From Rhodospirillaceae bacterium (lineage in GTDB: Bacteria; Pseudomonadota; Alphaproteobacteria; UBA8366; Aestuariispiraceae), in assembly GCA_002709955.1 (NCBI GenBank), contig PAQY01000013.1, positions 124,001 through 188,000 on the forward strand: 64,000 nt of DNA, read 5' to 3'. This document shows, one piece after another, positions 17,569 to 29,934 of the stretch. Numbering within the stretch: the first letter of the stretch is position 1; the number at the start of each line of letters is the position of its first letter. Under the pieces are notes generated by a model that was not told where the DNA came from, searched no databases, and worked only from the letters and a program-made list of their open reading frames with translations. Made by a program: the position numbers and the translations under genes.

Positions 17569-17738
17569 TTCCTTGCTCTTTATCCTGGCACTCAGCCGGG
17601 GATACGAACTGGAAATTCATCGGTGATACAGGGTGTTTGGGGAATTCAACACTTCTCTGTAGCAGGGATAGAAACGATACCTCTGCCCGACGGGAATTTT
17701 CGGAACATCGCATTTTTATCCACGTAATACACACAGCA

Positions 17739-17761
17739 GAGGGCGCAATGTATGCGCCCTC
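17739..17761 (-). terminator. Displaced original tRNA-Pro terminator
   Basis: GAGGGCGC (17739-17746) and GCGCCCTC (17754-17761) form an 8-bp hairpin 21 bp beyond the CCA end of the tRNA-Pro 3' fragment on the minus strand, followed by GCTGTGTGTATT. It has the same layout as the hairpin behind the intact tRNA at 18655-18687, so it was probably the terminator before the island inserted. Confidence 0.5.
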
Positions 17762-17781
17762 AAACTGCATGATTTTTTGAA

Positions 17782-17821
17782 TTGGTCGGAGAGGCAGGAT
17801 TCGAACTTGCGACCCCCTGCT
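17782..17821 (-). pseudogene. Duplicated 3' end of tRNA-Pro (attachment-site scar)
   Basis: These 40 bp match 18706-18745 of the intact tRNA-Pro gene with a single difference (17807 T against 18731 C, in the T-stem). They cover CCA, acceptor 3' strand, T-arm and the 3' side of the anticodon stem and then diverge abruptly. A lone 3' tRNA fragment in direct orientation is the classic product of integrase-mediated insertion into a tRNA gene. Confidence 0.85.
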
Positions 17822-18035
17822 TCAAATTTTGTTAACTTTTTCACTATAATATTGTTTTTATTGTATTTTATTCGCCTTTCGCTCTCTTAAAGCACATATT
17901 TTTTAGTTACACACTAGTTATAGAGCGCACGACAGGCGCTTATAGGAGCACTACGCCCGCAGTTCCGCCACGCTGCAAATGTGCAGCGCAAGCAGGTTGG
18001 AGTAGTTGGCGGGTTTGACGGGTTGGTTTGGATTG

Positions 18036-18245
18036 TTAGGAATACCGAGTAACTTCCTTCACACTTTCACATATCGTGCAGACATCCTTACGCCGATCAA
18101 ATTGCCGTGTCTTCGATAGTTCCCGAGTCTTATGGTTAGCATGTTGACGGATGCTTAATCCTAATGCCTTTGTGATACAGTCATCACATACTGGTTCTGG
18201 TGACTTGTGAATGAGATATTCTCGAACCTGTTCCAAGACAGTCAT
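18036..18245 (-). CDS. Small double-CxxC putative zinc-binding protein
   Basis: A 69-residue protein, the only well-supported gene in the island. It has two CxxC pairs, PVCDDC near residue 19 and DVCTIC near residue 55, separated by a basic helical segment with LGLSIRQHANHKTREL that resembles a short winged or HTH helix pair. A zinc-ribbon or treble-clef DNA/RNA-binding fold is plausible. The ATG at 18245 is preceded by a strong GGGAGGTAATA site; an upstream in-frame ATG (18305) is less likely. Function unknown. Confidence 0.7.
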   Translation of the reverse strand: MTVLEQVREYLIHKSPEPVCDDCITKALGLSIRQHANHKTRELSKTRQFDRRKDVCTICESVKEVTRYS

Positions 18246-18654
18246 TATTACCTCCCATGCCGTTCTCAAAGCATACAGTAACGCGGCTCGACTTTCGATA
18301 TCCATTCACAGTTTGAAGGATCGTTTGAAGGCAGGCGAGAAGACACGATAGATCGAAGGATAGAGAGTTGAAGAATGGCAATGTTCCTAAGCGAACGCGC
18401 ATGTTTATAAAGAGGCAGAACACGTATGCTAACAGTCACGTTCCGTGACGATGCAACAGACGTATTTGATGACTCTGTAAATGGAACACTAACGACTACA
18501 GATACGGTTTGCGAACCTGAGACCACATACATATCAAATACATGGGGCACTGTTACCAGAGGCGAATCAGCCAGCCAAAGCTAACAAAACACACGCTGTA
18601 AGCTATTGTTTTTGCACCAAAAAATTTTTTGCATAGTTACACACATGTTACACA

Positions 18655-18687
18655 CAGCTAGAGAGCACACCGTGCGCTCTCTAGCTG
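18655..18687 (-). terminator. Terminator hairpin downstream of tRNA-Pro
   Basis: CAGCTAGAGAGC (18655-18666) and GCTCTCTAGCTG (18676-18687) form a perfect 12-bp stem with a 9-nt loop, 20 bp beyond the tRNA CCA end on the minus strand. On the plus strand it is followed by a T-rich run, so it may work in both directions. It belongs to the island side of the junction. Confidence 0.6.
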
Positions 18688-18706
18688 TTTGTTTTCATTG
18701 GGTTTT

Positions 18707-18783
18707 TGGTCGGAGAGGCAGGATTCGAACCTGCGACCCCCTGCTCCCGAAGCAGGTGCGCTACCAGGCTGCGCTACACTCCG
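18707..18783 (-). tRNA. tRNA-Pro (CGG)
   Basis: A 77-nt cloverleaf on the minus strand starting CGGAGTGTAGCGCAG and ending CTCTCCGA-CCA, with CCA encoded. The anticodon loop TTCGGGA within the CCTGC/GCAGG stem gives anticodon CGG, reading CCG. The acceptor stem pairs except for one T-T opposition at 6:67. D-loop AGCCTGGTAGC and T-loop TTCGAATC are canonical. It is the target of the adjacent island, and its 3' half is probably island-derived. Confidence 0.95.
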
Positions 18784-26382: not shown

Positions 26383-26681
26383 TTACGAAACCCATCGCAT
26401 CAAAAACCCAACCACCTTCCGCGTCCGATCTGAAAACAGGCTGGGTGTGAAATAGCTGCCGGCTGTGCGTTTGGTGACTTCGGATAGGGTGGGATAGGGG
26501 GCGATCAAGCTGGCGAGGGTGCTCATTTTCTGGCGGTTTTGCACGGCCATGATCCAGGGCAGCAGCAGGTCTCCGGCATGGGCACCGACGAGGGTGCAGC
26601 CCAGCGCCCGGCCCTTTGTGTCGACGATTGCTTTGACCAGCCCGTCGGTGCGGCGTTGGCGCGGTCGCTGTTAGCAAAAAT
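26383..26681 (-). pseudogene. Displaced 3' end of the flavin disulfide-reductase gene
   Basis: A headless copy of the C-terminal ~95 codons of the gene at 28501-29934. Positions 26399-26657 align without gaps to 28514-28772 with 15 differences in 259 bp (about 94% identity by hand). It ends in its own tail, SLFSDRTRKVVGFLMRWVS, then TAA at 26383; the upstream end breaks into hipA after a small deletion and a stop. It is probably the original 3' end, cut off when the hipBA segment arrived. No start codon or function. Confidence 0.85.
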
Positions 26682-26691
26682 AGCAGTAAAA

Positions 26692-28002
26692 TTATTCCAA
26701 GCTGATCAATTGAGTTCTGAAAGTATTTTGCAGCCTGGATGCATCCCCTGAAGGCACGCCCGCAATTTTTGCATGTTTGGGCCATGCGCTGACCGCAGCA
26801 GCAATTTCTGCCAGGATTCTTTTTACTTTTGTTATTTTTATTCCGGCCATTTTTGCGAATGCCAGAAAGTCTTCGGGTGTGAAATCATCGTGTTTCCCAT
26901 TCAGGCTCATCTGATGTTGACTGGTCCACGCGCCATCCGGGTTATAGGAATAAGCAATGTCAAAGGCGGGCGCTAGGCGCCATGTCCCCGCGCGATCCAT
27001 CAGGAAGGCGATGTTCTTGACGTGATCGTCTTGGTTTCGGGTGATGACGTTAAAGAGGGCGCGGCGATATTGCTCTTCAATGCTGGGCATTGGGATACTG
27101 AGTAATTTTAGAGTTTGGATTGCTTGTTCGTAAGAGTAGGCACCGGCCATATTGAAATCGAAATGTTGCAGGGCGCACAGGCTCTGCATGTGAATTTTTT
27201 CACCTGATGTGGTTCGGTCAAATCGTTTGGTCATGAAATGCGCCCGCCCACCTTCCTCATGCAGGCGGCATGGCGTCATTTCGATTCCTGCCTGGCGGGC
27301 CATCAGGAAATAGGCATATTCAATACGTCCAAAACCTTGCGGATCCGCGATTTCCTTATCACGATTGCCGTCGATACCGTCGAATTTCATAATCCAGTAA
27401 CCGAATTCTGGATCGTTGGGGATCTGACCTGATCGGAATTCGCTAGTCTTTTCATTCCAGGCAAGTATTGCTTTCGCCCGGGCTCCGCCTGCGGATGTGC
27501 CGACACGCAGGATGTCTTCAATGGCGGATTGGTCATCAATGCCGTCGAATCGGCCGTTCAGGGTTCGGCGCGTGTCTAGGGCCTGATTGGCTAACTCAAC
27601 CAGTGCTTCGATTTGGACTGTTCTGCTGGTGTTCGAGACGGAGCCTCGGCTTGGCTGAAACTCTAACGCGCCCATGCCCCTGGACCCGGTGTAGCACAAG
27701 CGATCAACGGGATTGAAACTGGCGGCAGTTCGGTTCTCGCGCGCCAGCCAGGCATCGATCAGGGCGTTCCCGAATTTATCTGGCAAGCTGTCCGCCAGCA
27801 ATCCAGGCAGGCCTTTGAAGGTTTGTTGGTTCAGGTTTGGGAACTCATAGGGGGCGTCGCGCAAGGGCATGGTCAGGGGCGCGACCTCAATCCCACTTTT
27901 GGCAAAAGCCCCTGAATACTGGAAAACGCCGATCTGACGATCTTCCAACCAGGAGACAGCGCCGATCTCTGATCCCCATAGTAAAACCCGTGCGTCGGTC
28001 AT
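26692..28002 (-). CDS. hipA: HipA-type serine/threonine kinase toxin
   Basis: A 436-residue HipA kinase. The N-subdomain contains the LNQQTFKGLPGLLADSLPDKFGN block (key part GLLADSLPDKFGN), the Gly-rich loop GTSAGGARAKAI (169-180), and in the C-terminal lobe RNQDDHVKNIAF (catalytic Asp325, Mg-binding Asn330) and PAFDIAYSY (Asp348). HipA kinases phosphorylate translation components such as aminoacyl-tRNA synthetases and cause growth arrest; the target here is unknown. The start overlaps the hipB stop (27999-28002). It abuts the displaced reductase tail. Confidence 0.93.
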   Translation of the reverse strand: MTDARVLLWGSEIGAVSWLEDRQIGVFQYSGAFAKSGIEVAPLTMPLRDAPYEFPNLNQQTFKGLPGLLADSLPDKFGNALIDAWLARENRTAASFNPVDRLCYTGSRGMGALEFQPSRGSVSNTSRTVQIEALVELANQALDTRRTLNGRFDGIDDQSAIEDILRVGTSAGGARAKAILAWNEKTSEFRSGQIPNDPEFGYWIMKFDGIDGNRDKEIADPQGFGRIEYAYFLMARQAGIEMTPCRLHEEGGRAHFMTKRFDRTTSGEKIHMQSLCALQHFDFNMAGAYSYEQAIQTLKLLSIPMPSIEEQYRRALFNVITRNQDDHVKNIAFLMDRAGTWRLAPAFDIAYSYNPDGAWTSQHQMSLNGKHDDFTPEDFLAFAKMAGIKITKVKRILAEIAAAVSAWPKHAKIAGVPSGDASRLQNTFRTQLISLE

Positions 28003-28500: not shown

Positions 28501-29934
28501 TTATATTAATTTAATCAAAAACCGCACTACCTTCCGCGTCCGCTCTGAAAACAGGCTGGGCGTGAAATAGCTGCCTGCTGTGCGTTTGGTGACTTCGGAC
28601 AGGGTGGGGTAGGGGGCGATCAGGCTGGCGAGGTGGCTCATTTTCTGGCGGTTTTGCACGGCCATGATCCAGGGCAGCAGCAGGTCGCCTGCATGGGCGC
28701 CGACGAGGGTGCAGCCGAGCGCCCGGCCCTTTGTGTCGACGATTGCTTTGACCAGCCCGTCGGTGCGGCGTTCGGCCTGGGCACGGTCGTTTTCGGCAAA
28801 ATGCCAGCGCAGGACCTTATAGTTTCCAGCCCCCAGTTTCTTTTCCGCCTGGGCCTCGGTCAGGCCAACCTGGGCGATTTCGGGGTCGGTATAGGTGACC
28901 CAGGGGACCGCAGTGTGGTCCACTTTGGTCCAGAACATCTTAAACAGCATCTGGCGGATGACGATGCCCGCGTCATAGCCTGCCATATGGGTAAATTGCA
29001 GCCCGCCCGTCACGTCGCCAATGGCAAAGATGCGGCGGTTGCTGGTTTTCAGATGGGCATCGACGGTAACGGCCCCGCGCTCCGTCTTAACGCCTGCCTT
29101 GTCCAGGTCCAGACCGGCGGTATTGGCGCGGCGGCCCACAGCGACCAGAAGATGGCTGCCGGTAATCACGTCCTGCTTGCCATCCTTTTCCACCGTGGCG
29201 GAAATGCCGGTATCGGTGGGGGCGACGCTTTTCAGCGCAGTCTCCTCGCGGATATCCAGACCTTCGGCGCGTAGTCTCTCCAGCACCAGGGCGGTGGCTT
29301 CGGGATCATCCTTGGCCAGGGCCTTTGCCATTTCGATGACGGTGACCTTGCACCCCAGGCGGCGATGGGCCAGGGCCATTTCCATGCCGATGGGCCCGCC
29401 GCCGATGACCAGCAGGTGGTCGATGGGCTGGTCATTGTCAAAGATGGTTTCATTGGTCCAATAGGGTGTCCTGTCCAGCCCATCGATGGGCGGAACGAAG
29501 GCGGTGGAGCCGGTGGCGATGACAAAGTATTTCGCCTGGATTTTTGTATCGCCTGCCTGAACCTCCGCCGGGCCTGTGAAACGGCCAGGCTGCTGTATCA
29601 CCGTCACGCCCAGGCCCTCAAAACGCTCAACAGAATCATTGGGTTCGATTGCGGCAATCACGCCTTTGACATGGGTGCGAACTTTTTTCCAGTCGACCTT
29701 GGGGGTGACGGGCTCGACCCCAAAAATGTCAGAATGGCGCTGGACATGGGCGGCATGACCGGCGGCCAGCAATGCCTTGGACGGCACACAGCCAAAATTC
29801 AGGCAATCGCCCCCCATTAAGCCCTTTTCGATTAGGACCACGCGGGCGCCCATCTGGGCAGCACCGGCTGCGACGCTCAACCCGCCAGAGCCTGCGCCGA
29901 TAATGCAGATATCGGTCTTGATCGTGCCCGTCAT
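28501..29934 (-). CDS. Mercuric-reductase/dihydrolipoamide-dehydrogenase-like flavoprotein
   Basis: A 477-residue class I pyridine-nucleotide disulfide oxidoreductase. CIIGAGSGGLSVAAGAA binds FAD, GGDCLNFGCVPSK has the redox pair Cys44/Cys49, VIGGGPIGMEMA binds NAD(P)H and FAIGDVTGG binds FAD. The C-terminal interface has APYPTLSE rather than the HxHPTLSE His-Glu dyad of true dihydrolipoamide dehydrogenase, and there is no MerA heavy-metal domain, so substrate is unknown. The last ~86 codons are duplicated beyond hipA, and the final codons (…RFLIKLI) are AT-rich, matching the hipBA segment. Confidence 0.88.
   Translation of the reverse strand: MTGTIKTDICIIGAGSGGLSVAAGAAQMGARVVLIEKGLMGGDCLNFGCVPSKALLAAGHAAHVQRHSDIFGVEPVTPKVDWKKVRTHVKGVIAAIEPNDSVERFEGLGVTVIQQPGRFTGPAEVQAGDTKIQAKYFVIATGSTAFVPPIDGLDRTPYWTNETIFDNDQPIDHLLVIGGGPIGMEMALAHRRLGCKVTVIEMAKALAKDDPEATALVLERLRAEGLDIREETALKSVAPTDTGISATVEKDGKQDVITGSHLLVAVGRRANTAGLDLDKAGVKTERGAVTVDAHLKTSNRRIFAIGDVTGGLQFTHMAGYDAGIVIRQMLFKMFWTKVDHTAVPWVTYTDPEIAQVGLTEAQAEKKLGAGNYKVLRWHFAENDRAQAERRTDGLVKAIVDTKGRALGCTLVGAHAGDLLLPWIMAVQNRQKMSHLASLIAPYPTLSEVTKRTAGSYFTPSLFSERTRKVVRFLIKLI
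28514..28772 (-). repeat. Right copy of 259-bp direct repeat
   Basis: Partner of 26399-26657, gap-free, with 15 mismatches. It forms the 3' end of the intact reductase gene and marks the right boundary of the hipBA insertion. Similarity falls off sharply on both sides. Confidence 0.85.

Follow-up and report, generated by a model that had tools for sequence, protein, structure and literature searches.

Phage satellites of the PICI or PICMI type carry their own integrase and replication or packaging functions. For the tDNA islands catalogued by Islander, the available part of the description requires an integrase and a length of at least 2 kb (PMC4383910). CIMEs, as portrayed in the excerpt available to us, are decayed ICEs or IMEs in which attL and attR are kept and the genes for integration and transfer are gone (PMC5704250). 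The accessible part of a report on Dehalococcoides counts 15 integrase-less islands at ssrA (PMC3146451), and MITEs and CALINs are discussed, in the portion of a further article at hand, as hitchers, that is, as elements without an enzyme of their own (PMC11389934).

Here we describe a locus at the tRNA-Pro(CGG) gene of a Rhodospirillaceae bacterium, situated in a 64-kb window (the whole stretch of DNA that was analysed, 64,000 nucleotides), that is real and clearly delimited, ordinary in kind and unusually small (Table 1). In common with Islander tDNA islands, as far as the available description of these goes, the locus has a tRNA gene that appears to have been restored by the element, a displaced 3' fragment downstream and a position at the anticodon-side subsite 'A', but it differs from them in having no integrase and a length of 0.92 kb (PMC4383910). 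Because the integrase is absent and the unit is shorter than 2 kb, the Islander filters, as given in that part of the paper, would drop this locus (PMC4383910). As in a CIME, attL and attR appear from the sequence to be kept, and no integration or transfer genes were found; unlike the ICE- or IME-derived elements portrayed in the excerpt, the coding traces here are of phage type, yet relatives of the 69-aa protein encoded in the insert occur on plasmids near rlxS (PMC5704250). The locus resembles the Dehalococcoides ssrA islands in being bounded by a target gene and a repeat of it without an integration module, whereas those islands, in the accessible part of the report, have a tmRNA target, a serine recombinase, a many-gene cargo and a tandem arrangement with module-bearing islands (PMC3146451). 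With MITEs and CALINs it shares the retention of recombinase sites only and the need for a helper enzyme; those elements differ, according to the portion of the article at hand, in that the helper is a transposase or integron integrase and not a tRNA-targeting integrase, and the unit described here is present in a single copy (PMC11389934). Unlike a PICI or PICMI, the insert has no integrase, replication or packaging function that we could find. When compared to a defective prophage, it holds a truncated gene, the relatives of which have virion-type genes as neighbours, and a small gene whose family occurs in prophage-like records, but no hallmark phage gene. Judged from its sequence, the locus would work like a cis-mobilizable element or a defective prophage. 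(Note that narrow word searches of the literature found no paper on sub-kilobase or integrase-less tRNA islands.)

Table 1. Features of the tRNA-Pro(CGG) locus, in window coordinates.
Feature	Position	Strand	Basis
Host sequence found right after the tRNA at the empty site; includes hairpin stem 17739-17761	17725-17781		93% identity to L017/G001; hairpin fold
Displaced 3' half of tRNA-Pro, putative att core copy, far end of the element	17782-17821	-	40 nt, 1 mismatch to 18706-18745
Inserted DNA, 884 bp (924-bp unit with one core copy)	17822-18705		Missing from the empty sites of L017/G001 and L011/G003
GTTACACAC box, left, candidate arm-type integrase site	17906-17914	+	85 bp from core edge
Intact 69-aa gene with stop; predicted winged helix; CDDC and CxxC	18036-18245	-	Relatives in IMG/VR and on plasmids; AlphaFold2; fold matches
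Stretch in which the putative deletion junction would lie	18246-18410		Start of the intact gene at 18245; similarity to the longer protein from ~18414-18432
52-codon ORF, probable C-terminal stump of a 300-335-aa phage protein	18426-18584	+	tblastn E 6e-15 to 2e-7, 7 distinct proteins; PxTTYISNTWG motif
Tandem GTTACACAC-AT-GTTACACAC, right, candidate arm-type sites	18636-18655	+	51-70 bp from core edge
Insert-borne hairpin, at present downstream of the tRNA	18650-18692		Inverted repeat I1; fold -26.7 / -30.7 kcal/mol on the two strands
Intact tRNA-Pro(CGG), 3' half probably from the element	18707-18783	-	ARAGORN; Rfam RF00005, 64.7 bits

The two core copies form a direct repeat (98% identity, spacing 924) that spans tRNA positions 39-77 plus one base, beginning immediately after the anticodon and reaching the CCA end, which is encoded in the intact gene; the displaced fragment lies downstream of the tRNA in unchanged orientation. 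A reading of the window made from its sequence alone, hereafter the sequence-only reading, had reported this 40-bp tRNA 3' end with its one mismatch and an intact tRNA facing AT-rich DNA, and both are present as described, the insert having a GC content of 43.3% as against 55.8% for the window. When exact direct repeats of at least 16 nt within 3 kb were sought throughout the 64-kb window, just two results emerged: the tRNA-Pro pair and, at 26.4-28.8 kb with a spacing of 2115, a set unrelated to it. We also scanned up to 6 kb downstream of all 44 tRNA genes of the genome (38 fetched stretches and a slice of the window) for displaced copies of the tRNA 3' end, either 15 nt exact or at least 20 nt with one mismatch, and found such a copy at tRNA-Pro(CGG) only (1/44); for four tRNA genes near contig ends the scan covered 237, 411, 3969 and 5163 downstream bases. 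Shorter or weaker partial matches to tRNA-Pro in genomes of the order are found, among the matches listed, for example on G419:C61, G422:C4, G406:C2, G410:C87 and G013:C15.

The corresponding loci of relatives were reached through the flanking 342-codon gene. In one relative (L017/G001), the sequence directly after the intact tRNA is 93% identical over 98 bp to window positions 17725-17821, an alignment that includes both the tRNA-Pro 3' half and the stretch right after it. In another (L011/G003), the tRNA is separated from the flanking gene by ~210 bp with a hairpin soon after the tRNA, and the insert would not fit. Thus the site is empty in both relatives with a readable locus (2/2), the intact tRNA being followed by what is the left flank of the insert in the window. 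(Note that the 4-kb loci around the flanking gene in G002, G004 and G005 are without a tRNA and uninformative, and stand outside this count.) The empty sites in G001 and G003 therefore demonstrate an insertion of 884 bp, corresponding to a 924-bp unit, at the tRNA-Pro 3' half; since both readable relatives are empty, the insertion arose, by parsimony, in the lineage of the window. The window DNA on either side of the insert is host-like and in an order common to the relatives. The layout of an integrated element that had been read from the window alone is thereby upheld: the interval is missing from both readable relatives, so that the refuting outcome named in that reading, an interval shared by all relatives, did not occur. 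As a separate matter, an additional ~3.1 kb in the nearest relative, G001 (L017 9030-12190), separates the flanking gene from the hairpin downstream of the tRNA and is outside the insert interval; this DNA contains, by eye, a permease-like reading frame and has no counterpart in the window or in G003.

Within the window, GTTACACAC occurs in three exact copies (at 17906, 18636 and 18647), all of them inside the insert, and in none on the other strand. At least one copy appeared in 21 of 5000 single-base shuffles of the insert. The presence of repeats near both insert ends, another claim of the sequence-only reading, is thus confirmed in the form of three exact boxes lying 51-85 bp from the core, the right-hand pair with a 2-bp spacer. 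That reading had also placed a terminator hairpin on each side. Both hairpins exist and are strong, the main stem of the left one being host sequence and the right one the insert's own, but the terminator features do not hold up: no T run follows either hairpin on the tRNA strand, and a scan for consensus terminators found none. Two IHF-like words, each with one mismatch, turned up and were given no weight, and Rfam recognised no structured RNA family besides the tRNA. No second copy of the insert exists in this genome. Similar DNA was found in no phage, plasmids yielded one marginal match of 38 bp, and the exact tRNA core was absent from the viral contigs. Among the reading frames, 17951-18058 was considered as the tail of a known gene and found no support, 18269-18580 was considered as PF00311 and gave matches below the family cut-off only, and the remaining frames tested had no credible family match, leaving aside the two coding traces described below.

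The 52-codon ORF matches nine loci in IMG/VR that represent seven distinct proteins (L135-L137 carry one protein); the conserved motif was among the search words with which these nine loci were obtained. Six of the seven distinct proteins are encoded by ORFs of 301-335 aa and match with their C-terminal ends; the seventh runs off its contig. When each of the seven was compared with the insert by tblastn, it was the C-terminal end that matched, always in one frame, with other parts of the proteins reaching no better than E 1.6 and reversed-protein controls E 0.056 or worse. Because the matches are confined to the C-terminal end, the N-terminal ~250 residues are missing. The ORF itself is open, has an ATG and keeps all of the invariant C-terminal residues. 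In all six distinct loci tested, the upstream neighbour of the 300-335-aa gene has a tail or head-and-packaging PHROG match (tail-fibre or virion-structural), and such a match was seen too at L136, whose protein is identical to that of L135. The position of these neighbours suggests that the 300-335-aa protein is of virion type; we argue from position because the protein itself had no match in PHROG (two tested) or, by tblastn, in the phage collection (one tested). The 52-aa query had no match in the phage collection either, and no PF00589 match was present in the records with the 300-335-aa protein (0/9), records that may be fragments. In the 384 other genomes of the class the stump found one match, which is borderline (G054, E 0.008, internal stop).

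The second coding trace, on the opposite strand, is a 69-codon gene contained in the ORF 18036-18305, with GGGAGGTAATAATG at its start, a strong ribosome site and the invariant residues of its family. These residues, in an alignment of eight family sequences, include C20, D21, D22, C23, C56 and C59. Relatives with 43-57% identity occur in five IMG/VR records, and a repeat of the search with the alignment returned the same five; four of the five have a PF00589 match, two of them above cut-off. Further relatives are found on two Sphingomonadaceae plasmids, one from Sphingomonas (58.5%) and one from Sphingobium (34.8%), in both cases near an rlxS relaxase gene. No relative was found in the phage collection or in the other genomes of the family (0/13), and two were found among the 384 other genomes of the class (G020 and G207). 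The AlphaFold2 model of the protein has a pLDDT of 88.8, and its top PDB rows in Foldseek are winged-helix proteins. The predicted winged helix is a fold-level lead only, because the best Foldseek E-value was 0.11. Searches of Pfam, NCBIfam, PADLOC and PDB sequences with the 69-aa protein gave no match and PHROG gave weak matches only; membership in a defence family, which we had entertained, was dropped, as no defence family matched.

As the sequence-only reading had stated, the insert lacks an integrase: the genome has 11 PF00589 matches, all of them located elsewhere. Some of the 11 are close to tRNA-Leu, tRNA-Ser (two) and tRNA-Gly, and integrases beside tRNA genes are therefore at home in this chromosome. 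Specifically, integrase matches lie within ~1 kb of tRNA-Leu(TAA), tRNA-Ser(CGA), tRNA-Ser(GGA) and tRNA-Gly(GCC) (L082, L085, L086 and L087; G000:C8, C12, C7 and C11, respectively). The 6-kb scan revealed a displaced 3' copy for none of these four tRNAs, which leaves room for longer islands there. A resident integrase was also considered as helper for the insert. Nine stretches (133.6 kb) that together hold 10 of the 11 PF00589 matches contain no exact GTTACACAC and only five one-mismatch words, and the surroundings of the eleventh match (C12:375114, L031, 1.5-kb flanks) contain no GTTACACAC with up to one mismatch. The search for a tyrosine recombinase matching the arm-type repeats, which had been suggested along with the first reading, thus came back negative for the stretches fetched round resident integrases.

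Among 385 genomes of the class, the tandem box AGTTACACACNNGTTACACAC occurs in one, namely this genome. With any 2-bp spacer, it occurs in 11 IMG/VR records. In one of these, a viral contig with no apparent relation to this host (L043), the identical 21-mer AGTTACACACATGTTACACAC at 418-438 overlaps the 3' end of a gene for a 343-aa integrase (PF00589, E 1.5e-12). The 3' end of an integrase gene is a usual place for arm sites. However, the arm-site reading of GTTACACAC is a weak one, because an HMM search found PF00589 above cut-off in just 1 of the 11 tandem-box records (L043), with one weak match below cut-off (L049, ~640 bp from the tandem box) and none in the other nine. In L045 the tandem box lies, by eye, among apparent structural genes, and in L039-L042, L044 and L046-L049 it lies among TTATCCACAGG- or GTTACACACAGG-like words, clusters of which in these viral contigs are possibly replication-origin repeats.

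Taken with the empty sites, these observations make it likely, in our judgement, that an internal deletion reduced a phage-type integrative element, earlier inserted at tRNA-Pro(CGG) by a tyrosine integrase, to the present insert. By analogy with the principle set out for Islander, in the part of that paper available to us, the inserting enzyme would have been a tyrosine integrase (PMC4383910). The truncated gene points to an internal deletion, and the core copies and boxes suggest that attL and attR were kept. In the ancestry of this strain, a phage-type element would have entered the anticodon-side subsite of tRNA-Pro(CGG) through tyrosine-integrase recombination; it would have completed the tRNA with a 3' half and a hairpin of its own and left the old 3' half 924 bp away. 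An internal deletion at a later time would then have cut out almost the whole element, integrase included, and fused the region of a small regulator-like gene with the 3' end of a longer phage gene; the intact 69-aa gene, attL, attR and the candidate arm sites for an integrase would have stayed behind. Such a unit presumably could not move alone: excision as a 924-bp circle would need an incoming integrase of matching core and arm specificity, and the same integrase would be needed if the unit were instead carried along by an incoming element. An internal deletion would account for the two intact ends, for a small gene close to one end and for a 3' stump near the other. Weighing against a remnant, searches of phages, plasmids and viral contigs found no full-length parent, and no single known phage with both the 69-aa gene and the 300-335-aa gene was found; with PF00589 matches in four of the five records with 69-aa relatives and in 0/9 of those with the 300-335-aa protein, the two traces suggest phages of different kinds. 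Moreover, an old stump need not keep an open frame, an ATG and all invariant C-terminal residues, as the 52-codon ORF does.

The sequence-only reading had offered two options, a deletion remnant or a minimal satellite, and of these we favour the remnant over the satellite because the insert holds the 3' stump of a longer phage gene. For the satellite to be correct, the 924-bp unit would itself be mobile through a helper integrase that reads GTTACACAC, much as MITEs use a foreign transposase, and the 69-aa protein or the phage-protein stump would give the unit or its host an advantage. The retention of both cores and of boxes at both ends, the two open ORFs, and the strong ribosome site and conserved residues of the 69-aa gene are what such a unit would display. 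Nevertheless, we regard it as unlikely, given that the unit is single-copy in this genome, that no other searched genome has both parts (69-aa relatives in 0/13 of the family and 2/384 of the class; the stump in one, borderline, G054), that the tandem box is in none of the other class genomes, that no fetched stretch round a resident integrase has the exact box and that one of the ORFs is a truncated gene. Decidedly improbable is a more elaborate form in which the locus is a MITE-like hitcher of a tRNA-targeting tyrosine integrase, 924 bp in all and composed of an attP plus one or two small genes; its content of phage origin, a DNA-binding regulator and a virion-protein C-terminal piece as decoy or dominant-negative, would aid the unit or its host in countering the phage that provides the integrase.

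The absence of PF00589 from all nine records with relatives of the stump would fit a different origin, namely phage DNA left from an infection, or a short linear piece, that by chance carried a tRNA-Pro 3' end and was never an autonomous element. We think this improbable, since a cleanly duplicated core and boxes close to both ends are the expected outcome of site-specific integration. That each tRNA copy is followed by a hairpin and a GTGTGTA-like continuation, with 78% identity over ~92 bp when the tRNA part is included, raises the prospect that part of the tRNA was duplicated in tandem and that the copy then decayed. However, the tRNA part is 98% alike and the remainder far less so, and the intervening 884 bp have no copy elsewhere in the genome, a different base composition and coding traces of phage type; the empty sites and the foreign content largely refute a duplication, which we consider hardly credible.

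The internal-deletion remnant would exemplify how far an integrated element can shrink with both recombination ends surviving, and its site is empty in two relatives. To our knowledge, this unit, if mobile at its present size, would rank with the smallest known for a tRNA-targeting integrase. Such scars escape a catalogue with a 2-kb minimum and an obligatory integrase, as in the available part of the Islander description, and the end state of tRNA islands is therefore under-sampled, as is the question of whether some tRNA islands become helper-dependent units (PMC4383910).

The unrelated repeat set elsewhere in the window belongs to a locus at which a HipA-type gene (HipA_C, Couple_hipA) is flanked on one side by a pyridine-nucleotide oxidoreductase gene and on the other by a copy of the 3' end of the oxidoreductase gene. 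The copy is 259 bp long and 94% identical (26399-26657 / 28514-28772, spacing 2115 bp), and the ORFs at this locus are 26692-28002 (-) and 28501-29934 (-). The arrangement resembles the outcome of a 2.1-kb insertion that struck the 3' end of a protein gene and duplicated its target.
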